Assembly (NCBI GenBank): GCA_964017235.1
Contig: OZ024931.1
Span: 121,531,530 to 121,595,529 of the forward strand
DNA length: 64,000 nt
Source of the DNA: Sabellastarte sp. h YS-2021
Lineage: Eukaryota; Annelida; Polychaeta; Sabellida; Sabellidae
Direction: 5' to 3'
Every line of letters starts with the position of its first letter. Positions within the stretch are counted from its first letter, which is position 1. The position numbers were made by a program, and so were the translations under genes. Shown piece by piece: positions 1 through 64,000 of this stretch. Below the pieces are notes generated by a model that was not told the DNA's origin, searched no databases, and was given only the letters and a program-made list of their open reading frames with translations.

Positions 1-487
1 TTCAGTAAGTCTTGCTATTTTTACTTACAAATGGCTGGGTTTATGCTTGGGGTGAGGTTAAGGTCACTGCACAAATGCACGGGCCAAAATGGGGGTCAAA
101 GTATCATACACTGTTGTGCACCTCTCTGGGAGAGCCCAGTGGTGATCTGTAATTTTCAAGAGCTAATGTTTTGACAATTATGATAAGGTTATTTTATATA
201 CATCAAAGTAAATCCAGTACAGCAAACCTCACAAGACATACCTCTCAAGCAAGACAAAACTTATGTAAAGATAAACTATCAAAACAAGATAATTTAACAG
301 CACATGACCGTATTCATTTATCAACTAAAAGTTCTCAAGTTGTACAATTTATTAACTCATCTAGTTAGCAACTGAAGCATAGCTGTCAATAATAAAAATA
401 AGTACAGTAGTCAGTTCCAGCAATGCTTATATATTTGTGATATGAAAAATATGGCTCAAATAAGGCAGTAGAAACATTCTGGCAGAG

Positions 488-1268
488 CCAAGGTCAAAGG
501 TCACACCAAGGTCACGCTATGATGCTTCACACCCACAACCTTGAACCAACATATCTAACAAGTAACAATTCCCTACACCTTATGGTTTTTCAGACAAAGC
601 CTGGACACTATTTTACAGGTCAAGGTCAATACAGCCAGGTTAAAGGTCAATTCAAGGTCACGCCATGACGCTACATACCTACACCACCCAAACCAATGTC
701 CCTACCAAGTATCAACTTCTTGCACCTTATGGCTTCTGAGATATAGCCTAGACAAGATTTTAAAGGTCAAGGTCATACACAGCTATGTCAAAAGTCAAAT
801 CAATCTCACACCATGACACTGCACACCTTCAACACCCTACCAAAGTTTCTACAAAGTATCAACTTCCTACGCCTCATGCTTTCCAAGACACAATCAACAA
901 AATTTAAAGGGTCAAGGTCTATACGGCAAGGTCAAAAGTTAAATCAATGTCACACCATGACACTGCATACCCACACCACTCAGCCAATTTCCCTACAACA
1001 AATAAACTTTATACATCATGCAGCTTTTACAGATACAGCACAGACAAGATTTGAAAGGTCAAGGTCACTAAAGCAAGGTCAAAGGTCAGGATCACAGCAA
1101 ACCTTATCATTTGTAAGATACAGCCAGGACAACATTTTAAATGACAAAGCCACTAAGACAAGGTCAAATCATGGTCATACCATGATTTTCAAGGTCACTA
1201 CAGCAAGGTCAAAGGTTAAATCAAGTTTACACCACACCTTATAGTTTCTGAGATACAGACAGGACCAG
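488..1268. repeat. AGGTCA-rich degenerate tandem repeat block (U1)
   Basis: About six degenerate monomers of roughly 145 bp can be aligned on a recurring CACCTTATGG-like anchor (near 575, 723, 870, 1012, 1100 and 1234; the fifth step is short). Each monomer carries AGGTCA motifs in one orientation. I count about 17 exact AGGTCA copies by eye, far above chance for 780 bp. They include DR1 pairs (AGGTCA-A-AGGTCA) at 491-503 and 1076-1088, and directly abutting pairs near 616, 764 and 1057. AGGTCA is the half-site bound by nuclear receptors; DR1 suits RXR/HNF4-type dimers and TCAAGGTCA suits ERR/FTZ-F1-type monomers. Whether it is regulatory or only a satellite cannot be told from sequence. The block lies downstream of A and of the previous B. 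Confidence 0.85.
1166..1188. repeat. 10-bp inverted repeat with 3-bp spacer inside the AGGTCA block
   Basis: Arms AAATCATGGT (1166-1175) and ACCATGATTT (1179-1188) are perfect reverse complements around CAT. The same palindrome is present in the AGGTCA block of the other units. It could be a dimeric binding site or a hairpin; nothing else supports a role. Confidence 0.7.
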
Positions 1269-1402
1269 ACTTCTTCCCACCTGTCTGCCGGCCCAATTTC
1301 AAGGAAATTATGCAGCTAATATCAGTTATGTGGCTAGAGCACAGACACCAAAGTTTCTCAGTGGTTACATAAAACAGAAAATACAGTTTCAACAATACAA
1401 CT

Positions 1403-1408
1403 TTTATT
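1403..1408 (-). terminator. Poly(A) signal of gene A
   Basis: AATAAA on the minus strand lies about 120 bases after the gene A stop codon. It is kept at the same relative place in the other units, so A has a short unspliced 3' UTR with the ordinary polyadenylation signal rather than a histone stem-loop. Confidence 0.7.
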
Positions 1409-1524
1409 GATTCCATCAAATTGCTATTCATATTTACACAGTGCAATATGGTTATAATGTCTTGATTATTATCACAGATAAATGCTAAGCATAGTATTCC
1501 AAAATTTCACTCATGCAACAACAA

Positions 1525-1935
1525 CTAACAATGGACATCAGCACCATCTAAGGCTTCTAAATCCAGTTCGTCTTCAATGATGCCTTCTCTCAATAGTTTC
1601 AGGTGCAACGCATCCAACTTATCAGCATGTTGGCTGGCATAATCATAGAACATGTTTCGGATACCCTCCAGAGTAGCAATCTTCAGTCTCAAGAAGTAGC
1701 GGAAGCTCCTGCTGCTGCAATCCACAGCTCTGTCATAGCGGTTCTGTAGGTATTCTATTTCATTGTTCATCAGCACCACTTGTTTGCAAGCAAGTCTAAA
1801 CTTCTTGTTCATCTGCTTCAGACTGTACAGTAACTTTTCACCATAGTCATCATCATCCAAAAAATCAGACACACTGCTGTCCATGCTACTTTCCATCTCC
1901 AGTTCATAATCACTAATTTCCATATCTGACTCCAT
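1525..1935 (-). CDS. Gene A copy 1: 136-aa acidic coiled-coil protein, unknown function
   Basis: I do not recognise this family. The longest open frame would begin 25 codons upstream at a GTG, which is not a usual nuclear start. The first ATG (1935) sits in AACATGG, a good Kozak context, and aligns exactly with the start of paralogue B, so I place the start there. Residues 1-35 are acidic and Ser/Asp-rich, with a DDDD run at 27-30 ahead of YG. From about residue 35 a heptad series continues to about 70. A second helix covers about 78-117, and the tail is acidic and ends in HC. Residues 42-71 are identical to B 43-72. There is one cysteine in the core (Cys50) and no signal peptide or membrane segment. 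It is intronless and divergent from B. A small cytosolic or nuclear helical protein is likely. Confidence 0.82.
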   Translation of the reverse strand: MESDMEISDYELEMESSMDSSVSDFLDDDDYGEKLLYSLKQMNKKFRLACKQVVLMNNEIEYLQNRYDRAVDCSSRSFRYFLRLKIATLEGIRNMFYDYASQHADKLDALHLKLLREGIIEDELDLEALDGADVHC

Positions 1936-2432
1936 GTTAATAAAGTGCACAATTGGCAAGGTCACACAAGCTATAGCAATACCAAGAGGTTTTAGGTATA
2001 TCTCTGACACACCCTACCTGGTGGGGCATATTTATACCACATCTGATGACACAATGACACTGATCAACTCTTGATTGCAATCCGTGCTTAACTCCAAATA
2101 CTCATCATCTGACAAAAGTCAAGTCCTGCCAAAGTGGCTCCACTACCACATTGCAATTACCACCCACTCCTCAAGTGACATATCTTCTCTTCCCATTCAA
2201 AGCCTGATTTATGGCAGTTAGCCTGAACAAAGGACAATGCATTATCAGTGGACCATTGAGCAGCCATTTCAAAGTCACTGTCAACCCATCTCAAAGGACA
2301 AATTACAATTTCAATAGCACTCGGGCCACTGGGACTTACAACTACATGTATATATATAGGAAGGCAATTTCAATGATGCATGTTACACCCTACCAACACA
2401 GTGATTCTGTATTTTTGTGACCTTTATTCATC
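1936..2432. promoter_or_regulatory. Shared bidirectional promoter of genes A and B (U1)
   Basis: This 497-bp gap separates the divergent start codons. For A, TATAAATA is on the minus strand at 2029-2036, about 95 bp before its ATG, with no ATG between. For B, a (TA)5 run preceded by CATG at about 2349-2358 is the likely TATA element, about 75 bp before its ATG. Two ATTGCAAT motifs (2074-2081 and 2150-2157; C/EBP-like) lie between the two TATA boxes. An AGGTCA half-site sits in each presumed 5' UTR: CAAGGTCACA at 1957-1966 for A and TGACCT at 2418-2423 for B. ATGs at 2373-2382 form a short upstream frame of 15 codons if transcription starts before them. A 69-codon plus frame and a roughly 60-codon minus frame also cross this region; I do not count either as a gene. 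Confidence 0.75.
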
Positions 2433-2849
2433 ATGGAATCTGGTATGGAACTTAATGATTATGAGTACAAAATGGACAGTAGCTTTGATACCACTGATTC
2501 AGATTTTCTGACCAATGATGATGATTATGGGCAGAACCTGTTAAATCAAATCAAACAAATGAACAAGAAGTTCAGACTTGCCTGTAAACAGGTGGTCTTA
2601 ATGAATAATGAAATAGAGTACCTGCAGAATCGATATGACAGAGCAGTTCAGCACAGCAACAGAAGCTACCGCTACTTTTTGAGACTCAAGATTGCTACCA
2701 TAGAAGGAATAAGGAACATGTTTTATGATTATGCCAGTCAACATGCTGACAAATTAGATGCTCTACACGAACAGCTTCTCACTGAAGGCATCATTGAGGA
2801 GGAATTAGACCTAGATGCTCTTGATGATGAAGACATTGAAAACCCATAG
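2433..2849 (+). CDS. Gene B copy 1: 138-aa acidic coiled-coil protein, paralogue of A
   Basis: Unrecognised family. The ATG is in ATCATGG (A at -3, G at +4). Residues 1-35 are acidic with Tyr10/Tyr12 and an NDDDYG motif at 28-33. Positions L36, I40, M43, F47, A50, V54, M57, I61, L64, Y68 and A71 keep strict 3-4 spacing, a coiled coil of five heptads. A second helix, about 79-116, has a partial heptad pattern (L83, I87, I90, F97, A101, L108, L111, L115). The tail, about 118-138, is acidic and ends NP. An amphipathic helical hairpin or dimer is the simplest reading. It is about 80% identical to A in the second half and identical over 30 core residues. It is intronless, with AATAAA about 180 bases after the stop. 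I see no DNA-binding or catalytic motif. Confidence 0.85.
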   Translation: MESGMELNDYEYKMDSSFDTTDSDFLTNDDDYGQNLLNQIKQMNKKFRLACKQVVLMNNEIEYLQNRYDRAVQHSNRSYRYFLRLKIATIEGIRNMFYDYASQHADKLDALHEQLLTEGIIEEELDLDALDDEDIENP

Positions 2850-3028
2850 TTTTCCAAGATGACAAAATACAAGCATATTGGTATTATGCAACCTGTGATA
2901 ATTCTGAACATTCTACTTTGTAATTAAATAGAAACATGTTTCCATTGTGTATTTCACTCAATGTATTTATCTTATATCCTTGATATTAATTCTGTTGTGC
3001 ACGTCTTGTGTCTTACATAGCATTTCTT

Positions 3029-3034
3029 AATAAA
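3029..3034 (+). terminator. Poly(A) signal of gene B
   Basis: AATAAA lies 180 bases after the B stop codon and keeps the same place in every unit with an intact B 3' end. No competing upstream AATAAA was seen. Confidence 0.7.
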
Positions 3035-3745
3035 ATATTATGTTACCAATCTTATGTGTCTATCTACTCGTTACTTTATGCTTGATACAATACAAAATCT
3101 TAATTCTTATTTACACAAAATTCAATGACAGGTTTTAACTGAAAACTCAAATACTTTAGGTGAAGTCACTTTGCCAGCCTTATTCCTAAGCCTAGCACTA
3201 ATCATTCACTTTGCTACTGCTGCTGTTAGCACATAGTTTCTGGAATGTCACTCAAACTTTCAGTAAGTCTTGCTATTTTTACTTACAAATGGCTGGGTTT
3301 ATGCTTGGGGTGAGGTTAAGGTCACTGCACAAATGCACGGGCCAAAATGGGGGTCAAAGTATCATACACTGTTGTGCACCTCTCTGGGAGAGCCCAGTGG
3401 TGATCTGTAATTTTCAAGAGCTAATGTTTTGACAATTATGATAAGGTTATTTTATATACATCAAAGTAAATCCAGTACAGCAAACCTCACAAGACATACC
3501 TCTCAAGCAAGACAAAACTTATGTAAAGATAAACTATCAAAACAAGATAATTTAACAGCACATGACCGTATTCATTTATCAACTAAAAGTTCTCAAGTTG
3601 TACAATTTATTAACTCATCTAGTTAGCAACTGAAGCATAGCTGTCAATAATAAAAATAAGTACAGTAGTCAGTTCCAGCAATGCTTATATATTTGTGATA
3701 TGAAAAATATGGCTCAAATAAGGCAGTAGAAACATTCTGGCAGAG
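3035..3745. other. Non-coding spacer between B 3' end and next AGGTCA block
   Basis: Roughly 700 bp of AT-rich sequence spans the unit boundary. It contains one isolated AGGTCA near 3317-3322 and short open frames of 62-76 codons that change length between units through single substitutions, such as TTTTGA against TTTAGA near 3427. I find no gene. Equivalent spacers follow every gene B in the array. Confidence 0.7.
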
Positions 3746-21969: not shown

Positions 21970-22291
21970 ATGGAATCTGGTATGGAACTTAATGATTATG
22001 AGTACAAAATGGACAGTAGCTTTGATACCACTGATTCAGATTTTCTGACCAATGATGATGATTATGGGCAGAACCTGTTAAATCAAATCAAACAAATGAA
22101 CAAGAAGTTCAGACTTGCCTGTAAACAGGTGGTCTTAATGAATAATGAAATAGAGTACCTGCAGAATCGATATGACAGAGCAGTTCAGCACAGCAACAGA
22201 AGCTACCGCTACTTTTTGAGACTCAAGATTGCTACCATAGAAGGAATAAGGAACATGTTTTATGATTATGCCAGTCAACATGCTGACAAAT
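21970..22291 (+). pseudogene. Gene B copy 7, 5' fragment, broken by DIRS element 1
   Basis: Codons 1-107 are normal; the element enters within codon 108. The frame runs 11 codons into the element and stops at 22326, so a transcript could make a 118-aa product with both the coiled coil and most of the second helix but no acidic tail. The missing 3' part is at 27849-27943. Confidence 0.9.
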
Positions 22292-22332
22292 TTGAAAAAT
22301 TTTGTTGTAATTTTAATTTTTATTAGATAAAT

Positions 22333-22500
22333 ACTTACCATTTCCTGACCATTGCTATATGTTGGTGCCATCCAACTCACTGGCCAACGTTGAGAAACGT
22401 TTTAAGAAACCTTAAGAGGCCAGTGAGTGAGTGTGAACTAGCATGTCCCCCTAGTGGTCATGTGACCACGCTAGTAAACAACCTTCATTATTTTTGTTGC
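22333..22500. repeat. DIRS element 1 inverted terminal repeat, 3' side
   Basis: Pairs with 27664-27830 over about 167 bp. The outermost 41 bp (22292-22332) are unique to this end. It contains an internal palindrome GTGGTCATGTGACCAC at 22455-22470. Confidence 0.85.
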
Positions 22501-22552
22501 AGAAAATACTCCCCTAGTACTGAATCTGCGGGGAGGTAGGGGGGGACTATCC

Positions 22553-22654
22553 TGGTCAGGAAATGGTAAGTATTTATCTAATAAAAATTAAAATTACAAC
22601 AAAATTTTTCAATTTTATTGCGAAAAATACACTTACCATTTCCTGACCATTGCT
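22553..22654. repeat. DIRS element 1 internal complementary region
   Basis: 22553-22612 is the exact reverse complement of the left end 22292-22351. 22613-22654 is the exact reverse complement of the right end 27807-27848. The two termini are thus represented head to tail, as at a circle junction. This is the hallmark by which DIRS elements copy their ends. Confidence 0.9.
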
Positions 22655-23339
22655 GAATGCAGCCTTCATGGAAGGAGGGCAGTACTAGAATTTAAAGACC
22701 CAGTACACCACTCTGCACAGCTACCATACACAGCACAAACCTATAGGCATTCAGATCCAAACTAACCTCCCAGATGAGGCAGTGGAACTGTTGAGCACTA
22801 CAAAACAACACAGCCTTGTTGCTGTTGTTGTTGCTGTTGTAGGAAGGAAGTAATCATAACAGAGACTCACTACCTAGCCTACAACTAAAACATTATGAGA
22901 AGTTTACATTGAAATTTACATGCATACCACAACATATAAACTTCCAACAGTCACCACATACCATACAGATCCCCTAAATCATAGTATGTAGTTGAAGTTC
23001 TCACAAACTGACAGTCATTGTCACAGTTGAATGTTGCATCTAGACAAACATCCAACACCCACACAGGTGACACAAATATTGGAAGTGTCATCAGCATATT
23101 GTGTAATTCCAAGCCTGAATGAAGTCAACAATTCTGCCTAATAAAAAGACAGATAGTATGACACACATACAGATGCAAATGTATACTAAAGTATCAAAAT
23201 AGGTATCACACATATACTTATAAGATAACAAACTGTAGGACACAATATCAAAGTCTGACCACAAGCAAACCAAGCAGGTGAGACTGAAAATTGGTGAAAA
23301 AGTTATGGTTTCCAGTAACAGGCATCTGAAAATTCATAT

Positions 23340-24110
23340 ACAGAAACACTATACTAAAACCTAAAGATTCTTGCTTTGACTCGCTGCTGTTGAGAGTCAG
23401 AATTTGACTTCTCCTCAGTCAAAAAGCTAGTCTGCCTACAGCAAGATAAGATAGTAGACCTGAAAATATCTGCTGTAAAGCCTTCCTAACTAGGCACGGA
23501 CAAGACATAATAATTCCTCATTGAATCCTTTGTCCCAAGTAAAAGTATTTCAAAACCTCACAAGACAAAGAGATCTATCTTGAGTAAAACTGCTGTCCCA
23601 GTGATTGAGAGCTGGCATATCGACCGGCTTAACTGAAGTAGGCCCATCCAAAGCCAACTGAATCTTGGCTAATAAATGGCCAGAGCCACTTGTGAGCAAT
23701 ACTCATTCAAAGTAAGGGAAGACAAAGCTAACGAAAATACCCTTCTTCCTTTGCCTAATGCCAAAGTCAAAAGAAAGACCGTCTTGAAAGTTAATAACCT
23801 CCAAGAAATCTTCCCCAAAGGCTCAAACGGCTGTCTGGTGAGACCAAACAAGACCAGAGACAAAAGGAAAAGAAGGCTTAACCTATTGACTACTGGATTG
23901 TCTCTATAGAAATATGTCAACAATCTATACAGCTGAAGAGTTCTAGAGACTATTCTCCTTCAAGGAAAGCAATCTACCATTGTTATTCTGAAACCAGCAA
24001 TAGTAGATGGCTTAAGATTCCTTTCCTTAAAGAAATAATTAAGGAAATTTGCTACATCTAGAAAAGAAGTATCTGAGAAGTTCACCACAAAGAAGCCTCA
24101 GATGTGCATA
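23340..24110 (-). pseudogene. Tyrosine recombinase relic (DIRS element 1)
   Basis: Minus-strand fragments match element 3 in order: an N-terminal piece with PSTIAGFR at about 24000-24060, then FYRDNP near 23900, then LTFKTVFLL at about 23790, then QDRSLCLVR near 23560, then a C-terminal part with several stops. I cannot find an intact HxxR box. Frameshifts and stops break it at least five times. Confidence 0.7.
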
Positions 24111-24159
24111 GATTTACCAGGTCCCACAACCAAGAACATCCACCATGACCATCATGATT

Positions 24160-24840
24160 CAATCATGATGAATCTGCACCTGAAGGTGGTCATCTTCTAA
24201 ATCACCTGAAGAATCCTTGGCTATCCTGGTGCAATCATGATGATTCTGCACCTGTAGGTGATCATCTTGAGTCACCTGAGGAATGAGAACCACTGGAAAC
24301 AAACACAAAGCTGTCCAGATCCTCCCAAGAAATGAGTAATGCACCTGATCCCCAAGCCCCACAGTCTAAGAAAGGAAACACATACACTGGAAGCTTAAGA
24401 TTCAGGTTATTGGATACCAATGGCATAATGATTGAACTCACCAGCAAGGGAAGCCTTAAAAAGGAACCTTTGTGGAACAGATCCACCAGATCCCAAAAAT
24501 AAGACATCCCTAGCCACTCTGATGCAATCCAGATGATTCTGCACTTAAATCTTGGAGTAGCCATTCTTAATAGCTACAAAAAGAATTTTCTTGACTTTCC
24601 TGAGATCTTTGACTTATCCAGATAACCTCTCAAGACTCTCACTGGACAAAGAAACCTATCTTGCACCAAAGCATGATCTAAAGAAGGTTCCAAAACAGGA
24701 ATGACTACAGGTTGAAAAACCAAAGGAGCCTTAGAAGCCAAATGATTCACCTGCATCACCTGAAGAATCAAGGTCACAGGACCAAACAAACTGTCCAGTC
24801 CATCCCAAGAAAAGTTGAAAAAGACAAGCTTGTGGTTCAA
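24160..24840 (-). pseudogene. Scrambled DIRS coding segments (element 1)
   Basis: Reading the minus strand, a post-RNase H segment (SWDGLDSLFG) is followed by an out-of-place copy of the middle of the recombinase (RFLCPVRVLRGYLD at about 24650). Next comes a second post-RNase H stretch (YFWDLVDLF near 24500) and then another SWEDLDSF segment near 24320. In element 3 each segment occurs once and in order. Internal duplication and template switching would explain it. Confidence 0.55.
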
Positions 24841-25149
24841 ACTAGTTGCAAAACAAATCCATCATTGGTGATTGTAATCAAAGACAGATTTGATTGAACA
24901 CCTGAATCAGAATAGAAGATTCAAAAGTCATCCAAAACACATTCAATTTGAATCACCTTGACTCTCATGAACAAAGAATTTGTTAGAACATTTGTATACC
25001 CTGGGAAGTGATATGCCTGAATCTGAACCCATCGCATTCGTCCAAGGAATGATTCTTCAGATAAGGAAACACATTCCTGAAAGTGGGTACCTCCCTACCT
25101 GTTCAGATAGGAAACCACTGAAGAACTGTCTGTGGAAATCAAGAGATTT

Positions 25150-25375
25150 AGAATCCGAATCAGACTTCCAAATGATTCTAAAGGTAGTAGCACTGTTAAT
25201 GTGGAGTCTTGACCCCTCATGATACAACAGACCACTGGCTGTTTGATGCCATAATTGTGCATCCCAACCCTAAAAGAAAGCATCTAATAACAGAAGGAGA
25301 TTGTGCTCCTTCTGATGAAGTAATGGGAGCTCCTGCAAATTTGAAAAGTCGGTCCACCACTGAAGATGATCCCTG
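25150..25375 (-). pseudogene. RNase H relic (DIRS element 1)
   Basis: On the minus strand a QWWTD-like segment, then LLLDAFF, then GWDAQLW in other frames, parallel the RWWLEES, FTDAS and GWGAHL region of element 3. The catalytic Asp region survives only in part, and frameshifts separate the pieces. Confidence 0.6.
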
Positions 25376-27663
25376 AGAACCTGAGAATATCACAAGATCT
25401 CTGGAACTCTAGAAGATAGCCTTGACCAAAATGACCCAATGGCCTTGTCTTATCCTATGAAGCCATGCCACCAACCAGAAAAATGGCTTCCTAGAAACCA
25501 TTAACTGGAGAATCTGCAATTCAAAATAAAAACCCTGAGACTGGGACTTAACTTGATATAATAAATCATGATCCAACCCTGGCTTTAGACATGTACCAAA
25601 TGTATATAAAGTGGTGACACCGAATGCCTTCTACTACAGCCATCATGTTCACTATCATTTGATACCAGCAGAGCCGAAAATAAACCATTTCAAAGAGCCA
25701 GGCAATGAAATGGTCTATATACTGGTAAAACATGATGCGTTCTTATAGATCCCACAGTTTCACCATGTACTGACATAGCGAAGAGACAATGAACTGGTGT
25801 GATCTGTCATCAACACTGAAGTGAAGATAAAAATTCGCGTGAATCCGGCTACGAAAGAATGCCACTGTAAGGAAAGGTACAAATACCTCCATTCACTTAC
25901 TAGAAACAAAAGCAAATATTCCAATATTGCGAAATTAAGGTACATGTAAAGGCCTGTTTAACTGACCTCAACTATTGGTGGTAGCCATCTCTTCCCAGCT
26001 TATGACAACCGATAAACTGTAAAATTGCAGCGATATCCCCATCTTACTGGTGTTATCGCCCTTTGTCGATCATTTCATAAACAGCTCCTATCAAACTGTT
26101 GTCTCTCGCCCTTTTTTTTTTTTTTTTTTTTAACTTCAAAACCCATGTCCACAAATGTTTTCTGCATATGGATCAGAACTACTTCCTGCTACTGTCGCTT
26201 CCGTGAAAAAAATGGATGAAAAAAGTCCTGCTACTGTCTGAACAAGTAAGAAATTGTATATCTGCGAAACTGGACATACATTCCTCCTAAACAATTACTC
26301 CATTAAAAACATTACTAACTTATATTACTTCTAATTCCCCCATGTCTATCTGAGGAACAGAGTAAAAGGAAGAATTGTCATAAAAGGGACAAAAGTATAT
26401 GTTGTAGTGCCTTTTATGACGTTTCTAGTCATATGTCAGATTTGGCCCTTCCTAACATAAGAATCCCCATAACATGAGATTACAAAATGAAGTTTTTCGG
26501 GGCATCTGACATGTGTCCACCAAGAAAAAACTTCATTAACAGTGAAAAATGCACTCCTTATCCCACTAAAATATTTAAAGAGATATGTTAGAGCACTGAA
26601 AGATCTGAAACACTCCTGGTGAGCAAAAATTCAGGATCTTTGAGGACTGTAATTGCAAATATTCTGGTGACAAACCAAGAAGTTGCTGATATTCTATGAG
26701 AAGTAGCTAATCCTTATAGATCCTTGAAGAAATCCTGCCAGAGGTCCTGCTAGACCACTTCCAATAATTCTTATCCAAGATTTGACATGCTCTCTAGCTG
26801 CTGCAGAGAACCAGAGAACATGTACTCTTGAATAATAAATTGACAATGGCTACTAGTTATATGTACCGGTGCCGGTTTCCAGCAGAAAAACCGGTAAAAA
26901 AGTATAGACTGAAAAGGCAATTGCTGAGATGAATCACAACTCCGGTCATCTGTCAAACCGATTCCAGACCTTTGAGGAGGTATGGAAACTCGATTGTGTT
27001 CGGATGACGTCATTCAGGTATTTTCCTCCGTGAAAAGTTCCGACTGAAGTCCATCGGAAGAAATAAATGGAGAAACAGATCAAATCTGCATTCGGAACTT
27101 GTCCAAGAGCATGTCTGACCCCAAAGGGGATTCCATCCAGTCACCGCTTCGGCAGAGAATGACGTGGTGAGATATTTGCTACCAAACTCCAGGCTAAATG
27201 AACCCGACGAGTGAACAGGTTTATAACAATCGAATTGTCTTTCATGGCGACTTCCTTGGTTGCCTAGCAACCTGTAAACTGTCCCTGCCGGAGCTAGTAA
27301 GACTGCCGACAGTTTCAGTGTATATTGTTGTAAATCTTCAATCTAGTGGACAAAAAATATAAAAATAAAAGAACTTGGGTCATCTTCATGAAACACAAGC
27401 CTTTTGAAGGAAAAATTGAATTCTGAATAGAGGAATCCTCTTCATCCAACAACGAAACATCAATGCCGCCATCTTACAAATAGTGGCGCTCAATCCACCA
27501 TAAAATGGCCACAAAAGCACTTTCCCTCTGTGCTTTTTTAATTTCGTCCTGAGAAGACATTGTCAACACAGATGTCTTACCACAGAACTCAAAAAGCCAC
27601 AAAAAACCATCAAACTTAATAAAAATCCCAATAGAAAAAAATACGTCCACACTCTGGGATGGC
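25376..27663. other. 5' half of DIRS element 1, no recognisable gene
   Basis: AT-rich, with a T run near 26110-26131 and an ACCGGT-containing stretch near 26864 that recurs in element 2 (35669). Short minus frames at 26771-27270 are not recognisable as gag or RT. The RT core expected here is absent or decayed beyond recognition by eye. Confidence 0.6.
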
Positions 27664-27830
27664 CAACAAAAATAATGAAGGTTGTTTACTAGCGTGGTCA
27701 CATGACCACTAGGGGGACATGCTAGTTCACACTCACTCACTGGCCTCTTAAGGTTTCTTAAAACGTTTCTCAACGTTGGCCAGTGAGTTGGATGGCACCA
27801 ACATATAGCAATGGTCAGGAAATGGTAAGT
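27664..27830. repeat. DIRS element 1 inverted terminal repeat, 5' side
   Basis: Reverse complement of 22333-22500. Outside it are 18 unique bases, ending CGCAATAAAA at 27848. Confidence 0.85.
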
Positions 27831-27848
27831 GTATTTTTCGCAATAAAA

Positions 27849-32870: not shown

Positions 32871-32929
32871 AGATGGAGGTTTGTGCATAAATCTACCAGG
32901 TCCCACAACCAAGAACATCCACCATGACC

Positions 32930-34140: not shown

Positions 34141-34378
34141 TGATCCCTGAGAACAGAAAAACTGGGATATCACAAGACTTAGGATATGTGTGGTACATTA
34201 GCAGATAGCCTTGGGGTCACCTGATAAACAAATGACCCAATGACACTGTTTCCTCCTATAAAGCCATATCGCCATCAAATGGCTTCCTTAGAAACCCTTA
34301 ACTGGAGAAAAATGCTTGCTATGAGTAAAAGATCTACCCTAAGGTGGAATCAGGAAACCAAACTGAAAACCCCTGGTG

Positions 34379-34421
<43 letters not shown>

Positions 34422-36522: not shown

Positions 36523-36731
36523 CCAACAAAAATAATGAAGGTTGTTTACTAGCGTGGTCACATGACCACTAGGGGGACATGCTAGTTCACACTCACTCAC
36601 TGGCCTCTTAAGGTTTCTTAAAACGTTTCTCAACGTTGGCCAGTGAGTTGGATGGCACCAACATATAGCAATGGTCAGGAAATGGTAAGTATTTATCTAA
36701 TAAAAATTAAAATTACAACAAAATTTTTCAA
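36523..36731. repeat. Second, inverted 3' terminus of DIRS element 2
   Basis: Reverse complement of 31113-31321. It replaces the expected 5' terminus and abuts inverted gene B. Confidence 0.88.
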
Positions 36732-37053
36732 ATTTGTCAGCATGTTGACTGGCATAATCATAAAACATGTTCCTTATTCCTTCTATGGTAGCAATCTTGA
36801 GTCTCAAAAAGTAGCGGTAGCTTCTGTTGCTGTGCTGAACTGCTCTGTCATATCGATTCTGCAGGTACTCTATTTCATTATTCATTAAGACCACCTGTTT
36901 ACAGGCAAGTCTGAACTTCTTGTTCATTTGTTTGATTTGATTTAACAGGTTCTGCCCATAATCATCATCATTGGTCAGAAAATCTGAATCAGTGGTATCA
37001 AAGCTACTGTCCATTTTGTACTCATAATCATTAAGTTCCATACCAGATTCCAT
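36732..37053 (-). pseudogene. Gene B copy 9, 5' fragment (inverted)
   Basis: Codons 1-107, cut at the same base as copies 7 and 8. The frame runs into the element and stops at 36697. Confidence 0.88.
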
Positions 37054-47264: not shown

Positions 47265-47390
47265 ATGGAGTCAGATATGGAAATTAGTGATTATGAACTG
47301 GAGATGGAAAGTAGCATGGACAGCAGTGTGTCTGATTTTTTGGATGATGATGACTATGGTGAAAAGTTACTGTACAGTCTGAAGTTTTAG
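47265..47390 (+). pseudogene. Gene A copy 12, truncated at the fold-back junction
   Basis: Codons 1-40 of A followed by one foreign codon and a stop: 41 aa containing only the acidic N-terminus. Its promoter is complete, so the stub could be transcribed. No A 3' end or poly(A) signal follows in this orientation. Confidence 0.88.
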
Positions 47391-50520: not shown

Positions 50521-50562
50521 TTGCAAATTTAATAAGTAAATTAAATTTTTATAAGTTAATAC

Positions 50563-50735
50563 CCTATCCAATGGACAATTGCTTTACCGGTCGGCGCGAC
50601 CGGTCCCGCCAAACGCCAGAAAAAGACGTCCTGTATATAATACTGGCAGGACCGGTCAGTAGTGTGCATTCGCTAGGTGGCGCATCATACTTGCTTCCTG
50701 TCCAGACAGAGTGACGTCAGTTCATCTTTTTCGTT
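50563..50735. repeat. DIRS element 3 inverted terminal repeat, 3' side
   Basis: Pairs with 56629-56801. It contains ACCGGTCG at 50586-50593 and CGACCGGT at 50597-50604, a perfect palindrome around GCG. Confidence 0.88.
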
Positions 50736-50796
50736 GTCTAAAACGGTTTAGAACCCTAGTAAGCTGGTAGCGGGGTCGGTTGGGAGGGCCTTGCCT

Positions 50797-50892
50797 GTCC
50801 ATTGGATAGGGTATTAACTTATAAAAATTTAATTTACTTATTAAATTTGCAATTTTATTGCGTTAATACATCCTATCCAATGGACAATTGCT
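50797..50892. repeat. DIRS element 3 internal complementary region
   Basis: 50797-50852 is the reverse complement of the left end 50521-50576, and 50853-50892 of the right end 56781-56820. Both are perfect, and the joint reproduces a circle junction. Confidence 0.9.
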
Positions 50893-51289
50893 GAATAACT
50901 ACCGCTTGGTAGGCGGGTAAGCAGCTAGGGACTTCTGTGAACTCATAACAAAACAAAATTGTACAGGCCCATTTGACCTAGGGTCAGAGAACCCTGACAG
51001 GTCAAGGTCGGCCACTAACTCACCGGTTAACCGGGAGTCTACCGACGTTGCCCCCCCCCCTTTTCTTTCCTTCCAGAGTTGGTTGAGAAGGGAAAGATAG
51101 AGAGAGAGGGGCTGAGTTCAGTCCCAGAAGAAATAAACTTCTCAAGGGAAGCAAGTCACAGTTTTTTTTTGTTTTTTTTTTTTATTTACAATATGTACAT
51201 ATTTACATATATACAACATCCCCTCATTTCTGGGCCTGGTGGTGCACCTGCTGGGCAGCCACTACAGGTCCCAGGTGGAAAAGCTCCGA

Positions 51290-52290
51290 GTCAGCCCAGG
51301 CAACATCCTTCAAATAGAATTAGGTGAAGGTGTTGTGAGATTTCCAGTGGCAGGCTGACAAGATCTGATCTAAGGAAATCCCTGATTGGAAAGCCTTAGA
51401 GGCAGCAAAGGCCCTAACATCATGGGCTTTAACCTGATGTAAGGCGAGGGCCTCCTGGTCAGAGAGCTCATAGCACAGAACCACAGTCTGTTTGATCCAT
51501 GAGGAGATGGTGGCAGGTGAGATGTCTTTATCAAAACCCTTCTTGAAGGAGACAAAGACTAACTCTTTATTCTGCCTGAGGTCTGCAGTCCTGTCCAAGT
51601 AGTAGCGCAGGGCTCTAACTGGACATAGGGACCTGTCACCCTTGAGTGACCTATCCAGAGGTGGTGCCAGGGCTGGGATGACCACTGGTGCCACACTATC
51701 TGGACCTTCCTTAGCCAGCTGGTTCTTGGATAGGGAACTGGGTGAGGGGTACAAAAACACCTTAGACCAGTCCGACTGGTGTCTGATGTTCTGATGTAAC
51801 CAAGCATGGATCTCACTCCTGCGTTTACCTGAACCCAAAGCCAGCAAGAAAACAGTCTTGAAAGTTAGATGTTTCAAGGAGGCCTCTTTCAGGGAATCAA
51901 AGGGAGCCTTTGTGAGCTGATGTAAAACCAGTGAAAGGTTTCAGGAGGGGATGCCCCTCCTGCCCTTAGGTCTGTCTCTATGGAAACTATCCAGGAGACG
52001 AGAGAGATTCTCATCTTTGCTGACATTAATGGTGGAATTGCCCAGTTTGTCAGCAATGGCGGATCTGTAGCCATCAATAGTGCTTGGTTGTAACTTCTTC
52101 TCCTGAAATAAGTGCAGGAGGAAGTCAGCAATGGCTTTCAGAGGTGGTGCCCTGAAGTCCACCTGATTACTGAGGCACCACTTTGCCTCATAGACAGATC
52201 TGGTTGACCTTCTTTGAGGAGCCTCAATTCGTGCTGCCACTGCCTCAGAGAAGCCTTGCTCCTTGATTGCTGAGGCTCGAGGAGCCAGGC
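51290..52290 (-). pseudogene. Tyrosine recombinase of DIRS element 3, inactivated
   Basis: The N-terminal core-binding part (PSTIDGYRSAIADK, about 52055-52095) is followed by LTFKTVFLLAL, then GKRRSEIH with the first catalytic Arg, then SLCPVRALRYYLD, then AHDVRAFA (HxxR box, about 51408-51431), then the CHWKSHNTF segment. A TGA at 51941-51943 splits it. A TAA at 51320-51322 falls just before the FYL codons where the nucleophilic Tyr of DIRS recombinases lies. The first part shares DNA with the end of the RNase H region in a different frame, as usual for DIRS. Confidence 0.85.
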
Positions 52291-52533
52291 ATGTAGGTTC
52301 AGATTCGACAGGTTCCTGTGAAGGACCTGGTTGAATGGCTGAGACACTAGGTTGGGTATGCTGGGCAGACACAGTGGGATCTGGCTTGACATTGCTACCA
52401 GGTCCCAAAACCAGGGCATGTTGGGCCACCCTGGAGCAATCAGAATTATTCTGTTGCAGGGGTAGTCCTGGAGCTTCTCCACCACTTTGCCCAAGATGGC
52501 TGCCGGTGGGAAGGCGTATGGGTCCAGGTACTC
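52138..52533 (-). pseudogene. Post-RNase H linker segment of DIRS element 3
   Basis: In frame with RNase H after a TGA at 52534-52536. It has WFWDLVA and SNLNLHAWLLEP, segments that also appear in elements 1 and 2, so they belong to the family's polyprotein C-terminus. Its 3' half overlaps the recombinase frame. Confidence 0.65.
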
Positions 52534-53250
52534 TCAGGACAGGCTGAGTGCATCCACTGCCCAAGCCTGGGGGTCTGGTACCGGTGATACAAACTGTGGT
52601 AGTTTGTTGTTGAACCTGGTGGCAAACAGGTCCACTTGTGGCTGATGCCACCTTGAACATACAGCTTGGAACACTTCTGGATGAAGTGACCACTCTGTTT
52701 GAATGGTCTGGCCAAGCCTGGATAGCTTGTCTGCTATCACGTTCAGCCGGCCGGGGATGTGACGTGCCCTGAGGGTTACTTGCTGCCTGGTGCACCAGGA
52801 CAGAATTCTCCACAGTAGGGCACACAGAGAGCCCGATTTCATCCCCCTTTCTTTGTCGATATAGGCAACCACTGTTGTGTTGTCTGTAGCTACCAACACT
52901 GTCTTGTTGAAGACTAGGGTTTGAAACTCTTTTAGAGCTAGAAATACTGCTTTCAGCTCCAAGTGGTTTATGTGTAACTTGTTCTCGGGTAGGGACCACT
53001 GTCCCCTTGCAGTGTGCTCCTCTAAGTGGGCGCCCCACCCTTCTTTTGATGCGTCTGTAAAGATTTGCAGAGCATGTTTTAGAGGGTGTAATGGTTGACC
53101 TAGAAGCACATTGCTTTCCTCCAGCCACCACCTTAGATGGGGGTGGAGGGATTTGGGGACCGAGATCACCTTTTCCAGTGACTCTGGTACCCTCCAGTTG
53201 TTTTTCAAGTGCCACTGTATGGGTCTCAAGTTAGTCGCCCTAAGTGGACT
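52534..53250 (-). pseudogene. RNase H domain of DIRS element 3
   Basis: FTDAS, LELKAVFLAL, ATDNTTVVAYI and HIPGRLNVIADKLSR give the expected D-E-D-D catalytic set with its flanks in order, open in one frame to the TGA at 52534. The domain itself looks intact. It is separated from RT by a frameshift near 53230. Confidence 0.85.
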
Positions 53251-54143
53251 TGCTTTTCTGTTGCTGTGAGTAGACCTATGAGGGACATGAATTGTTGGAC
53301 CGGGCAAAGCGGATCCGACAATATTGATCTGATCTTGTGTGTCAAGGCCTGCCAACGTTCTTCTGTTGGTCTGACCTTGCCCTCTTTCAGGTCGAACTGG
53401 TAACCTACGAAGTTGAAGACCTGTTTGGGAACCAGCTCTAACTTTTCCTTGTTCACCAGCCACCCTAATTCCTGACAAAGTGTGACTAGGGTTTGAGTAT
53501 GCTGGAGACAGGTGTGGTGGGTAGAGGCTCTCACCAGCCAGTCGTCTAGGTACTGGTGGATCCTTATACCCTTCTGAAAAGCCACGAGTTTGACCTCTTT
53601 GGCCACCACTGTGAACTCCATGGGAGCTGTGGACAGGCCAAAGGGAAGGGCTTGAACTGGTAGGACCGACCCTGGAGGTAAAAGCGCATGTACTTCCTGG
53701 ACTGACTGTGAATTGGTATGTGGAAGTATGCTTCTTTGAAATCTATGGATGTGACCCACTCCCCTGCTTGGAGGGAGGTTCTTATGGTCTCTGGGGTTTC
53801 CATCTTGAACGTCCCTGTGTTCAAAAAGGTGTTCAAGGTGCTCAGGACCAGGACAGGTCTCGACCGGTTGTTGGGCTCGGGTACCAAAAATAGCCGGTTG
53901 CCCTGTGAGTTTGATTTCTACCGGTTGTACTGTATTCTTGTTCACCAGCTGATACAGTGCTTCTAAAAGGAAGGACTGCTTGGCTGGGTTGTGGTAGTTG
54001 CTTATTACAGTTGGTGACCTTGTCAAGTTGGGTCTGAACCGGAAGGGGAGGGTGTAGCCCTCCCTCAGTGTGGGGACTACTTTTGGACTCAAACCCAGAA
54101 CTTCCCACTTCTCCCAGCACCAGTTATAAGTGAAGCAATGCAC
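53226..54143 (-). pseudogene. Reverse transcriptase of DIRS element 3, frameshifted
   Basis: Segments LREGYTLPFRFRP and LLEALYQLVNK open the domain. Motif A (SIDFKEAYFHIPI) is in a second frame within 53564-53887. Motif B (LPFGLSTAP) and motif C (HQYLDDWLV) are back in the first frame. Frameshifts therefore lie near 53885 and near 53650, with a third before RNase H. The YLDD catalytic motif is intact. Confidence 0.88.
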
Positions 54144-56628
54144 TGTAACCGGTTCCTGGTGGTTCCCCAGTTCTGCATAAACTCATTGGAGTTGGCCGAA
54201 CTGGGTGAATTGAACCATTTCTTTGTATGGGTAGGTTCATATGAAAACTGCCTTCTTCCTGCCCAGTGGAGGATTCAGCAGCTTCTGCAACCAACAGTCT
54301 CTGTAACCGGCCAAACCGGTAGGTGCCATCTCTCTGTAACCAAAGTTTCTGGGAGAAGGCCCTGTAACCAAAGAATTGGGACATCACATTTCTGTAGTCT
54401 TAGTTAATCCCTTGGTAGATCTCCCAGTCCAGTAGACTGGTGTTCGAGATTCAGTCTGGTTACTTCACCATTATCTCTCAGATTCTTTTGAAGCAACTGT
54501 CCCTGAAGGTTTGCAAGCCGGCACCTGGTGGGTAGGTTCTGTAACCAGTCGGTTAAGGGAATTTCTTCCCGTCCAACTAACTTGTCACCAGCAAATTTCT
54601 ATAGCCGGTAAACCTCTGTAACCGGTGAACCTGTTGTCAGCACTGGATTTGAAGCTGGTTTCTTGTCAGTAAGCATGGGAACAGTAGTTTCTCTGTAACC
54701 AGCACCACACTCGGGAACCAGCAGCACTCCGGAACCGGTAATTCTCTGTAACCGGTGAACCTGCTGTCAGCACTAGATTTGAAGCTGGTTTCTTGCCAGT
54801 AAGAATGGGAACAGCAGATTCCTCTGTAACCAGCAGCACTCCTGGACCGGCAGCACTCAGGCACCGGCAACCCTGCGGCACCGGTACACTCCGGAACCGG
54901 CAACACTCGGGAGCCGGTAATTCTCTGAACCAGTAGCCCTGCTGTGTGTCACCAGCAACTCTGTGTAACCGGTAATCCTATTTAACCGGTAGCCCTTGCT
55001 GGATTTCTGTGACCACAACCAGCAGTCTGAGCAGAACTGGTGCCGGTATCCCTCATCAGTGGCTGGCTAGTGACCCTACCGGTAGCCTGAACAGGACTGG
55101 TACCGGTCCAAAATTCTGCACTGGGGAGATAAGGGTCAATGGTCACTGCGACTTCTGGTAGGTGAACCCTCTGAGCAGCCGCACCGGTGGTCTGAACAAG
55201 ACTGGAACCGGTACCCCCACAGTCACACCAGTGGAAAGGCCTCTGGTGGAGGTTCCAGTATCAAACAGGGCTGATCACTGGAAACCACTGAGGAGGGGGT
55301 CCTTGACAGCTTCACAGGAACATGACTGGAACCAGTACCCCCCAACAGTCCCACCAGTGGAAAGGTCTCTGGTGGAGGTTCCAGGATCAAGCAGGACTGA
55401 TCACTGGCAGCCACTGAAGGGGTTCTTCACAGGAACAGCACCCACCGGTAGTCTGTACAGACCGGAACCGGTACCCCCAACAGTCACACCAGTGGAAAGG
55501 CCTCTGGTGGAGGTTCCAGGATCAAGCAGGACTGATCACTGGCAGCCACTGAAGGGGATTTCTTCACAGGAACAGCACCCACCGGTAGTCTGTACAGACC
55601 GGAACCGGTACCCCCAACAGTCACACCAGTGGAAAGGCCTCTGGTGGAGGTTCCAGTATCAAAACAGGGTGATCACTGGTAACCACTGAAGGGGGTTGTT
55701 GACAGCTTCACAGGAACATGACTGGAACCAGTACCCCCAACAGTCCCACCAGTGGAAAGGCCTCTGGTGGAGGTTCCAGGATCAAGCAGGACTGATCACT
55801 GGCAACCAACTGAAGGGGTTTCTTCACAGGAACAGCACCCACCGGTAGTCTGTACAGACTGGAACCGGTAAAACCCATCACTAGTGCTCCCCACCGGTAG
55901 TCTGACCAGAACTGGTACCGGTAAAAATCATCACTTCTTGTCAGCTGAACCAGTCACGCCTGGGGATTTGCTTGCCGGTAGTGGTGTTGAGATCTGTGAA
56001 GTCACATGACCGGCACCGGCAAAAATTTGCAGAGTTCAATGACCACTTGTCATCTAATTCTTCAGGCCAACAGACGAGTTGCTGGATTTCTTCTTGACAG
56101 TTAAAAAGTGTGTGTACAGTAATAATTACTCGTCTTTTTTTTTTTTTTTTTTTCTAAAACTTCTGTTGAAAACACGATTCCTCCATTGTAAATGCGTATC
56201 ACGTGACCTCCATTGTTGAATGCGTATCACGTGACCAGGTCCGTGTCACGTGACAAACATAAGCTGGAAGTGATGACGTCAGACGATGCATTCTTCTTTC
56301 CTTCTAAATTCTTCTCGTCGACATACACTCAGTGTTTCTCGACAACGAAGAAATAAATGGAGGTTAAGTCGTGGAGATACAACCTTCTGTGTAGAAGAAG
56401 GAATGCTGCAGGGACGACACACGAGCTCTCACCCACGACTTCGTCTCGACGACAAGTACACAGAAATTCTTCAAAACTGGTTATAAAGTGCTGGATAATG
56501 CCTCGTTTTAGTCCTGGAGAGGCACTGATATGTATGAACACAATAAATATATTTAAATTCGTAGAATAAGCCGCGTTTCCTTCAAAACTTGGAGATAACT
56601 TCAAAACGCGTCTGCACACGACGCGCCA
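54144..56628. other. ACCGGT-rich 5' leader of DIRS element 3
   Basis: About 19 ACCGGT sites by eye between 54300 and 56000. No gag is recognised; an 87-codon minus frame at 54124-54387 is unassigned. It has a T tract near 56135-56153 and CACGTGAC-type repeats near 56199-56253. Confidence 0.6.
55150..55880. repeat. Tandem repeat of about 125-137 bp in the DIRS element 3 leader
   Basis: Five to six copies of a unit with CCAGTGGAAAGG, CTCTGGTGGAGGTTCC and GACTGATCACTGG; for example ACCGGTAGTCTGTACAGAC at 55444, 55581 and 55841. The period is not a multiple of three throughout, so the 175-codon plus frame across it is probably accidental. Confidence 0.75.
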
Positions 56629-56801
56629 AACGAAAAAGATGAACTGACGTCACTCTGTCTGGACAGGAAGCAAGTATGATGCGCCACCTAGCGAATGCAC
56701 ACTACTGACCGGTCCTGCCAGTATTATATACAGGACGTCTTTTTCTGGCGTTTGGCGGGACCGGTCGCGCCGACCGGTAAAGCAATTGTCCATTGGATAG
56801 G
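56629..56801. repeat. DIRS element 3 inverted terminal repeat, 5' side
   Basis: Reverse complement of 50563-50735, followed by 19 unique bases ending CGCAATAAAA. Confidence 0.88.
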
Positions 56802-56820
56802 ATGTATTAACGCAATAAAA

Positions 56821-61113: not shown

Positions 61114-62008
61114 TTTTCCAAGATGACAAAATACAAGCATATTGGTATTATGCAACCTGTGATAATTCTGAACATTCTACTTTGTAATTAAATGGAAACA
61201 TGTTTCCATTGTGTATTTCACTCAATGTATTTATATTATATCCTTGATATTAATTCTGTTGTGCACGTCTTGTGTCTCACATAGCATTTCTTAATAAAAT
61301 ATTATGTTACCAATCTTATGTGTCTATCTACTCGTTACTTTATGCTTGATACAATACAAAATCTTAATTCTTATTTACACAAAATTCAATGACAGCTTTT
61401 AACTGAAAACTCAAATACTTTAGGTGAAGTCACTTTGCCAACCTTATTCCTAAGCCTAGCACTAATCATTCACTTTGCTACTGCTGCTGTTAGCACATAG
61501 TTTCTGGAATGTCACTCAAACTTTCAGTAAGTCTTGCTATTTTTACTTACAAATGGCTGAGTTTATGCTTGGGGTGAGGTTAAGGTCACTGCACAAATGC
61601 ACGGGCCAAAATGGGGGTCAAAGTATCATACACTGTTGTGCACCTCTCTGGTAGAGCCCAGTGGTGATCTGTAATTTTCAAGAGCTAATGTTTAGACAAT
61701 TATGATAAGGTTATCTTATATACATCAAAGTAAATCCAGTACAGCAAACCTCACAAGAAATACCTCTCAAGAAAGAGAAAACTTATGTAAAGATAAACTA
61801 TCAAAACAAGATAATTTAACAGCACATGACCGTATTCATTTATCAACTAAAAGCTTTCAAGTTGTACAATTTATTAACTCATCTAGTTAGCAACTGAAGC
61901 ATAGCTGTCAATAATAAAAATATGTACAGTAGTCAGTTCTAGCAATGCTTATATATTTGTGATATAAGAAATATGGCTCAAATAAGGCAGTAGAAACATT
62001 CTGGCACA

Positions 62009-62783
62009 GTCAAGGTCAAAGGTCACACCAAGGTCATACTATGATGCTTCACACCCACAACCTTGAACCAACATATCTAACAAGTAACTACACCTTATGG
62101 TTTTTCAGACAAAGCCTGGACACTATTTTACAGGTCAAGGTCAATACAGCCAGGTTAAAGGTCAATTCAAGGCCACGCCATGACGCTACATACCTACACC
62201 ACCCAAACCAATGTCCCTACCAAGTATCAACTTCTTGTACCTTATGGCTTCTGAGATATTGCCTAGACAAGATTTTAAAGGTCAAGGTCATACACAGCTA
62301 TGTCAAAAGTCGTATCAATCTCACACCATGACACTGCACACCTTCAACACCCTACCAAAGTTTCTACAAAGTATCAACTTCCTACGCCTCATACTTTCCA
62401 AGACACAATCAACAAAATTTAAAGGGTCAAGGTCTTTACGGCAAGGTCAAAAGTTAAATCAATGTCACACCATGACACTGCATACCCACACCACTCAGCC
62501 AATTTCCCTACTACACATAAACTTTATACACCATGCGGCTTTTTCAGATACACCACAGACAAGATTTGAAAGGTCAAGGTCACTAAAGCAAGGTCAAAGG
62601 TCAGGATCACAGCACACCTTATCATTTGTAAGATACAGCCAGGGCAACATTTTAAATGACAAAGCCACTAAGACAAGGTCAAATCATGGTCATACCATGA
62701 TTTTCAAGGTCACTACAGCAAGGTCAAAGGTTAAATCAAGTTTACACCACACCTTATAGTTTCTGAGATACAGACAGGACCAG
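62009..62783. repeat. AGGTCA-rich block (F4, type II)
   Basis: As F3, but one AGGTCA has decayed to AGGCCA near 62171. Confidence 0.85.
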
Positions 62784-63039
62784 ACTTCTTCCCACCTGTC
62801 TGCCGGCCCAATTTCAAGGAAATTATGCAGCTAATATCAGTTATGTGGCTAGAGCACAGACACCAAAGTTTCTCAGTGGTTACATAAAACAGAAAATACA
62901 GTTTCAACAATACAACTTTTATTGATTCCATCAAATTGCTATTCATATTTACACAGTGCAATATGGTTATAATGTCTTGATTATTATCACAGATAAATGC
63001 TAAGCATAGTATTCCAAACTTTCACTCATGCAACAACAA

Positions 63040-63450
63040 CTAACAATGGACATCAGCACCATCTAAGGCTTCTAAATCCAGTTCGTCTTCAATGATGCCT
63101 TCTCTCAATAGTTTCAGGTGCAACGCATCCAACTTATCAGCATGTTGGCTGGCATAATCATAGAACGTGTTTCGGATACCCTCCAGAGTAGCAATCTTCA
63201 GTCTCAAGAAGTAGCGGAAGCTCCTGCTGCTGCAATCCACAGCTCTGTCATAGCGGTTCTGTAGGTATTCTATTTCATTGTTCATCAGCACCACTTGTTT
63301 GCAAGCAAGTCTAAACTTCTTGTTCATCTGCTTCAGACTGTACAGTAACTTTTCACCATAGTCATCATCATCCAAAAAATCAGACACACTGCTGTCCATG
63401 CTACTTTCCATCTCCAGTTCATAATCACTAACTTCCATATCTGACTCCAT
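63040..63450 (-). CDS. Gene A copy 15
   Basis: Intact, 136 aa, with Ile7 to Val and Met95 to Thr, the most diverged intact A here. Confidence 0.82.
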   Translation of the reverse strand: MESDMEVSDYELEMESSMDSSVSDFLDDDDYGEKLLYSLKQMNKKFRLACKQVVLMNNEIEYLQNRYDRAVDCSSRSFRYFLRLKIATLEGIRNTFYDYASQHADKLDALHLKLLREGIIEDELDLEALDGADVHC

Positions 63451-63947
63451 GTTAATAAAATGCACAATTGGCAAGGTCACACAAGCTATAGTAATACCAA
63501 GAGGTTTTAGGTATATCTCTGACACACCCTACCTGGTGGGGCATATTTATACCACATCTGATGACACAATGACACTGATCAACTCTTGATTGCAATCCGT
63601 GCTTAACTCCAAATACTCATCATCTAACAAAAGTCAAGTCCTGCCAAAGTGGCTCCACTACCACATTGCAATTACCACCAACTCCTCAAGTGACATATCT
63701 TCTCTTCCCATTCAAAGCCTGATTTATGGCAGTTAGCCTGAACAAAGGACAATGCATTATCAGTGGACCATTGAGCAGCCATTTCAAAGTCACTGTCAAC
63801 CCATCTCAAAGGACAAATTACAATTTCAATAGCACTCAGGCCACTGGGACTTACAACTACATGTATATACATAGGAAGGCAATTTCAATGATGCATGTTA
63901 CACCCTACCAACACAGTGATTCTGTATTTTTGTGACCTTTATTCATC
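63451..63947. promoter_or_regulatory. Bidirectional A/B promoter (F4)
   Basis: 497 bp. The B TATA run is interrupted (GTATATACATAGG). Confidence 0.7.
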
Positions 63948-64000
63948 ATGGAATCTGGTATGGAACTTAATGATCATGAGTACAAAATGGACAGTAGCTT
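63948..64000 (+). CDS. Gene B copy 16, partial at window edge
   Basis: First 17 codons and part of the next. Tyr10 is His here (GATCATGAG). Confidence 0.8.
   Translation, partial: MESGMELNDHEYKMDSS

Follow-up and report, generated by a model that had tools for sequence, protein, structure and literature searches.

Tandem arrays of a head-to-head pair of small single-exon genes in Sabellastarte sp. h YS-2021

Why would an animal genome carry one pair of small genes many times over, in nearly identical copies side by side? The question arises from a 64-kb stretch of Sabellastarte sp. h YS-2021 DNA (the window; C5:121531530-121595529, in a eukaryotic assembly of 1.786 Gb and 647 contigs), in which units of 3249-3260 bp, 98-100% identical, are repeated in tandem. 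The units carry two genes, A and B, which belong to a family of small, mostly single-exon and presumably intracellular proteins. As read from the sequence, one head-to-head cassette with separate TATA-like boxes is repeated on contig C5 and has a sister array on contig C3. The overall explanation that we favour, held in even balance between acceptance and doubt, is an amplified retrogene-family cassette that serves as a dosage array for a dimeric intracellular adaptor.

A and B (136 and 138 amino acids) are single-exon genes placed head to head, with their ATGs facing apart over 497 bp and an A at position -3 of both start codons. A preliminary description of the window had recorded tandem units of about 3.25 kb and a divergent, intronless pair with TATA boxes, good start context and AATAAA signals, all of which is borne out. 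The one promoter that it assigned to the pair corresponds to one intergenic region, but this contains two TATA boxes and is better not called one promoter. Its counts, eleven full-length A plus one split copy and eleven B, are corrected here: 13 of the 15 A places are intact (136 amino acids), one is split by an element and one is a fragment of 40 codons, and the 16 B places comprise 12 intact copies (11 of 138 amino acids and one of 137), three cut near codon 110 and one cut by the window end. Three DIRS-like inserts (e1, e2 and e3) interrupt the array in the window. Units 1-8 and 13-16 run one way and units 9-12 the opposite way; the orientation changes at e2 and at ~47384, the second junction lying inside A, and these flips are either real inversions or assembly joins.

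The array seen in the window is real but not confined to it: it extends over ~177 kb of C5 (C5:121460548-121637776, or ~121.4605-121.6378 Mb), and C3 and C2 bear clusters related to it. A genome search with B as the query returned 86 rows from this main array. Of these, 35 are full-length A and 26 are full-span B, five of the latter being shorter by six or seven codons; the remaining 25 are partial (three resembling A and 22 resembling B), several of the B rows being two pieces of one copy. Among the partial B rows are five copies cut at residue 109, where e1 and e2 are inserted, and, at the left end, five frameshifted copies, each reported as two pieces. Since both kinds of damage recur in the main array, damaged units too have been amplified. 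A lone A-intergenic-B cassette at C5:121.048 Mb corresponds to unit positions 1378-2825 with 98.8% identity. The sister array at C3:14.21-14.23 Mb is ~95% identical to the C5 array and holds five full-length copies of A; its seven B places comprise two full copies without a stop, one with a stop, two without the first six residues, one frameshifted copy and one partial copy. Further relatives, some as divergent pairs, are found at C2:130.92-130.95 Mb and C1:69.40 Mb. At least 41 places in the genome match the intergenic region (36 within the main array, one at C5:121.048 Mb and four on C3), and it was found only together with the gene pairs.

Coding constraint and homogenisation

A comparison of A with B over 136 codons reveals 27 differences at the first codon position, 15 at the second and 68 at the third. 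The proportions of synonymous (pS) and non-synonymous (pN) differences are 0.81 and 0.14 for the whole proteins, and 0.75 and 0.044 for the core (columns 41-112), where five of 69 residues differ. The third-position excess, together with the few changes in the core, marks A and B at the codon level as real proteins, and the paralogue pair proposed in the preliminary description is upheld; the cores stay alike although synonymous sites approach saturation. Twelve paralogue pairs, of which two include A or B as one partner, were further compared by their non-synonymous (dN) and synonymous (dS) divergence. In all ten pairs with a defined ratio dN is lower than dS, with dN/dS values of 0.19-0.33 in seven pairs and 0.45 in two (L034/L035 and L015/L011); the tenth, a young pair of L031 copies that differ by few changes, has a ratio of 0.6. 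The ratio is undefined for one identical pair and for one with saturated dS.

The arrays on C5 and C3 were also compared. For one unit pair, divergence amounts to 1.5% in the A coding sequence, 2.9% in the B coding sequence, 3.2% in the intergenic region, 8.7% in the spacer, 5.8% in the repeat and 4.3% in the 3' untranslated region of B. Non-synonymous divergence is 0.012-0.022 against a synonymous value of 0.024-0.086 for A (five copies), and 0.015-0.021 against 0.072-0.073 for B (three copies).

Within the window there are four distinct protein sequences among the 13 intact A and four among the 12 intact B. The proteins are nearly invariant, as the preliminary description had stressed, but this sameness is not in itself evidence of constraint, since the units are homogenised over most of their noncoding DNA too. 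To judge by the unit alignments, A and B are nearly invariant within the array because entire units, with their noncoding parts, have been homogenised, and the evidence for constraint therefore lies in the comparison of A with B and of the other paralogues. Variable sites in the window number 10 of 828 in coding DNA and 76 of 2430 elsewhere (p 0.002).

Predicted hairpin domain and gene family

The domain shared by A and B is confidently modelled as a helical hairpin with acidic disordered tails. The predicted layout begins with a disordered, acidic head, followed by an antiparallel helical hairpin of basic character and then by an acidic tail; the two models have mean predicted local distance difference test (pLDDT) values of 75 and 80, and residues 41-110 are in blocks of 94-98. 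A Foldseek search with these models places the N-terminal dimerisation domain of ING proteins in the first row for both and in the top five rows for the second (4afl, 5me8, 5mto and 8cok; E 0.28-0.60 near the top, identity 14-18%, not significant). The predicted hairpin resembles this domain in its antiparallel helices and similar size, but the similarity in fold is not significant and no ING or PHD family of Pfam matches A or B at E up to 1. The structure check suggested beforehand has thus returned a hairpin fold with ING ranking first, but no significant match. That a given fold does not appear in the VIA and Foldseek lists is no evidence against it, and a viral structure library gave nothing at E 0.001.

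Sequence searches did not assign A and B to a recognised family. No curated Pfam cut-off was reached among the proteins for which cut-offs were shown (A, B, truncated B and two sets of 10); in a scan of 32 family members, cut-offs were shown for B only, with 25 of 29 families displayed. The KIF9, LemA, DUF496, NDC80-loop, TBCA, Mutator and similar rows were below the curated cut-off wherever one was shown and were rejected. Neither A nor B matches a histone family at E up to 1, in line with the preliminary description, nor a transposase or reverse transcriptase family. The best NCBIfam row (E 0.02) lies far under the cut-offs, the best PHROGs row has E 0.015, and PADLOC gave none. Rows from PDB sequences obtained with the core profile (tropomyosin at E 0.0016, BAP31, tetherin and others) were set aside as coiled-coil background. 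No relatives were found in virus, bacterial, archaeal and phage sequence collections, which says little, as these collections hold no animals. In the open-licence literature, peptide strings had no match, DNA-motif strings returned nothing useful for the taxon, and topic searches gave bivalve analogies only; an excerpt from a paper on trochin speaks neither for nor against a link.

The family in this genome is sizeable. With B as the query, 150 of 152 candidates were scored, yielding 139 matches on nine contigs with identity to B down to 28-30%; searches from two other members recovered subsets of these loci and added none. In 36 fetched loci, open frames with the hairpin motif were found with a profile built from A and B. 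The resulting alignment has 32 rows, 24 of which were trimmed to a core of 84 columns with K13 and Y67 invariant and F14, Q20, A38, E58 and G59 nearly so. Introns, with splice sites placed by eye, lie between the two hairpin helices in L025 (C6:36.209 Mb) and inside the first helix in L036 (C1:12.77 Mb) and L037 (C1:12.17 Mb); the other aligned members are uninterrupted across the hairpin, and 34 single open frames were tabulated. Some further copies are pseudogene-like, such as one at C2:130.943 Mb with two stops. In a tree of the 24 rows, A groups with copies on C1 and C2 (99/97), apart from B, from which we infer that the two genes are not sisters.

In A, B and ten others of the 34 frames, the ATG is preceded at a distance of 71-103 bp by a TATAWA hexamer, a weak count because related copies are not independent and shuffled sequence gives a rate of 14-65% over 200 bp. 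AATAAA occurs within ~400 bases downstream in 18 of the 34 and is not universal. The head-to-head layout recurs outside the arrays at L009 (C1:69.3995-69.4055 Mb), where two A-like copies with identical coding DNA are divergently oriented ~2.2 kb apart.

Several members depart from the compact form of A and B. L034 (C6:11.037-11.041 Mb) and L035 (C6:10.865-10.869 Mb) encode 363 and 339 amino acids from the first Met, with long repetitive extensions flanking the hairpin, and L017 (C3:139.320-139.323 Mb; 330 amino acids) has an N-terminal hairpin and a long tail without a Pfam match at E 0.01. L031 and L032 (C4:49.62-49.63 Mb) are divergent members in a small tandem cluster of their own, and their N-terminal part is weakly Mutator transposase-like (E 0.0006-0.01, under the cut-off).

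Readings of the amplification

Under the favoured explanation, a dosage array of retrogenes, the family would have spread by retroposition of an intron-bearing parent followed by tandem duplication, as is suggested by the three fetched loci that carry introns in the hairpin. Two members would have been captured as a divergent cassette and then amplified in tandem, with unequal exchange and gene conversion holding the units alike (concerted evolution), and the array would be retained for the higher dose that it gives, chiefly of A but also of B. The hairpin would pair with itself or with the sister protein to give a four-helix bundle, and the acidic tails would recruit partners, so that the product would be an abundant dimeric adaptor, regulator or chaperone-like protein and not an enzyme. 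The proposal of the preliminary description that large amounts of product may be required over a brief period is plausible. In the main array A is kept intact more often than B (35 full and three partial rows, against 26 full-span and 22 partial); A may therefore be the more needed product of the pair, although the counts are not independent events. A bolder proposal, which we regard as a long shot, is that A and B are co-amplified 1:1 head to head because their products form an obligate or preferred heterodimer required in very large amounts, which would place an uncatalogued animal domain in a histone-style dosage array of retrogenes.

A number of observations weigh against the dosage-array explanation. 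Among same-length copies in the window there are five non-synonymous and three synonymous changes (3:0 in A and 2:3 in B), with no constraint visible, and one B copy carries a 3-base deletion. The noncoding stretches 1241-1407 and 3036-3258 are as invariant within the window as coding DNA, and between C5 and C3 they diverge by 2.4% and 1.4%, with 0.9% in the 3' untranslated region of A; because such stretches are equally low, conversion tracts may account for part of the low coding variation. Partial B rows in the main array are nearly as many as full-span ones. The tree bootstrap has not settled and its deep branches are unsure. The introns occupy two different positions, intron gain is possible, and no parent gene has been singled out. 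No fold match is obtained at E 0.001 (best E 0.28 and 0.34), and since the ESCRT-III, prefoldin, LSD1 tower and PI3K iSH2 hairpins score about as well as ING, dimerisation is a guess.

The array may alternatively have grown neutrally, the cassette being located in a region prone to unequal exchange, with copy number a matter of drift and one or a few copies enough. This account, which we consider tentatively possible, accommodates the noncoding stretches as homogeneous as coding DNA, the amplified damaged units (the five B cut at residue 109 and the five frameshifted at the left end) and the coding changes that reveal no constraint within the window. It is harder to reconcile with the 35 full-length, stop-free A rows against three partial ones, with a coding divergence between C3 and C5 below that of the spacer, and with family clusters on several contigs. 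That A and B belong to a mobile element or satellite, or recently derived from one, is highly improbable. Three DIRS-type inserts do lie within the array, and in three of the 32 family members residues 10-78, which precede the hairpin, weakly match the Mutator transposase profile (E 0.0006-0.01; 15-19 bits, cut-off 26.5). The inserts, however, split A or B and possess ends of their own, A and B lack the transposase or reverse transcriptase matches sought, relatives are spread over nine contigs with dN below dS in all ten defined pairs, and the intergenic region is seen only with the gene pairs; membership in a mobile element or satellite, which the preliminary description named as its refutation, was looked for and not found.

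Two further readings rest on analogy with other multi-copy genes. Animal histone arrays consist of tandem kilobase-scale units with divergent, intronless gene pairs that evolve in concert, and the A/B array resembles them in each of these respects. By this analogy it might provide dosage in the early embryo or germline, where short cell cycles favour intronless multi-copy genes; the divergent pairs, single exons and homogenised units would fit. In contrast to histone arrays, A and B have no histone match in Pfam, polyadenylation signals (AATAAA) are present, and the histone 3' stem-loop consensus was found on neither strand of the unit; we judge this reading rather improbable. Also unlikely is an arms-race or stress array, an inducible pool of effectors against infection or environmental stress comparable to the IAP and nAChR expansions of bivalves. 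The genetic style would suit it (single-exon copies, dispersed and in tandem, as in the excerpts of PMC7831173 and PMC6896357), and TATA promoters without introns would permit fast induction. Nevertheless, a scan of the intergenic region with simple patterns, not drawn from a motif library, matched no heat-shock, NF-kB, AP-1, STAT or IRF-type motif, returning E-boxes, AGGTCA half sites and one ARE-like match, none compelling, and the units are homogeneous rather than diversified.

The bivalve families also show that the earlier statement that no described system matches was too strong. In the available excerpts, intronless IAP copies are attributed to retroposition, with tandem duplication in addition (PMC7831173), and single-exon nAChR copies to retroposition and tandem duplication (PMC6896357). 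The A/B family shares with them intronless copies, both dispersed and in tandem, and has intron-bearing homologues beside these. As far as these excerpts go, the bivalve families have known domains and diversified copies, whereas A and B have no recognised domain and form near-identical head-to-head cassettes, so the present system would be a variant of those expansions.

Whichever reading holds, a sizeable conserved family is described here from sequence, and its hairpin motif (K-F, Q, A, E-G, Y) can be searched for in other animals. A dosage array would be a non-histone protein-coding pair amplified with concerted evolution; a neutral one would be a clean example of tandem exchange making proteins look invariant.

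Inserted elements and feature positions

Inserted elements occupy ~17.5 kb of the window. In e3, RVT_1 (37.6 bits, cut-off 29.6), RT_RNaseH (29.1, 24.8) and RVT_3 (28.4, 21.6) exceed the Pfam cut-offs, and inverted copies are present at both ends and beside one end. DIRS1-like elements, as the excerpt of PMC3266345 describes them, combine reverse transcriptase, RNase H and a recombinase with inverted termini and internal complementary copies. The insert e3 is similar in its reverse transcriptase and RNase H, in the inverted repeats at its termini and in its internal complementary copies; its recombinase match (Phage_integrase, E 6.4e-5, 23.2 bits) is under the cut-off of 27.1, and no methyltransferase was matched in the frames scanned (two plus five). 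The comparison concerns the inserts only, not A and B, and because each insert breaks A or B, the inserts are not the vehicle of the genes. Nested tandem repeats of 130-137 bp lie within e3 at 54605-55870, away from the recombinase frame.

The inserts e1 and e2 are 95-96% alike over their first 3 kb and ~80% beyond, and the flanking units u07 and u08 are 98.8% alike. Located at one B site, e1 and e2 therefore diverge more (4-5% over the first 3 kb) than the surrounding units (~1%). This fits one old insertion that was copied within the array while its flanks kept homogenising; e1 and e2 may instead be independent insertions at one site. Insert-tagged units are an internal record of homogenisation, and the divergence gap is a possible clock for it. 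The two ends of e2 form a perfect 220-bp inverted repeat that extends into B (31114-37065).

Table 1. Positions of the array features within the window
Feature	Position	Strand	Remark
Reference unit u01	1..3258	.	unit boundaries arbitrary
147-bp internal tandem repeat, spacer	486..1088	.	AGGTCA-rich
AATAAA of A	1403..1408	-	3' of A
Gene A, reference	1525..1935	-	intact 136-aa (amino acid) frame
Shared intergenic region	1936..2432	.	497 bp
TATA box of A	2031..2036	-	-101 from ATG
TATA box of B	2349..2354	+	-84 from ATG
Gene B, reference	2433..2849	+	intact 138-aa frame
AATAAA of B	3029..3034	+	3' of B
Gene A, further intact	4783-5193, 8034-8444, 11285-11695, 14545-14955, 17805-18215, 21056-21466, 29881-30291	-	
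Gene A, further intact	37505-37915, 40756-41166, 44007-44417	+	
Gene A, further intact, right part	59792-60202, 63040-63450	-	
Gene B, further intact	5691-6107, 8942-9358, 12195-12611, 15455-15871, 18713-19129	+	
Gene B, further intact	39842-40258, 43093-43509, 46351-46767	-	
Gene B, further intact, right part	47828-48244, 57448-57864, 60700-61113	+	last = 137 aa
B copy interrupted by e1	21970..22302	+	at codon 111; 3' tail picks up at 27842
e1, degenerate DIRS-like element	22293..27844	.	inverted termini; remnants of recombinase and RNase H recognised by their similarity to e3
B copy cut by e2	30791..31123	+	site as in the e1-split copy
e2, relative of e1	31114..36727	.	palindromic ends; remnants as in e1; unit orientation flips across
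B copy cut on other side of e2	36721..37053	-	same site, opposite orientation
A 5' fragment	47265..47384	+	40 codons; at second inversion junction (~47384)
e3, DIRS-like retrotransposon	50521..56817	-	splits one A copy; reverse transcriptase, RNase H, inverted terminal repeats, internal complementary copies

Open frames of 143 and 182 amino acids over the 147-bp spacer repeat vary in length between units and were rejected as spurious, and no Rfam family reached its gathering score in the window. About 1 kb beyond the left end of the main array, a reverse transcriptase fragment is present (L043:4842-5411; E 6.6e-20).

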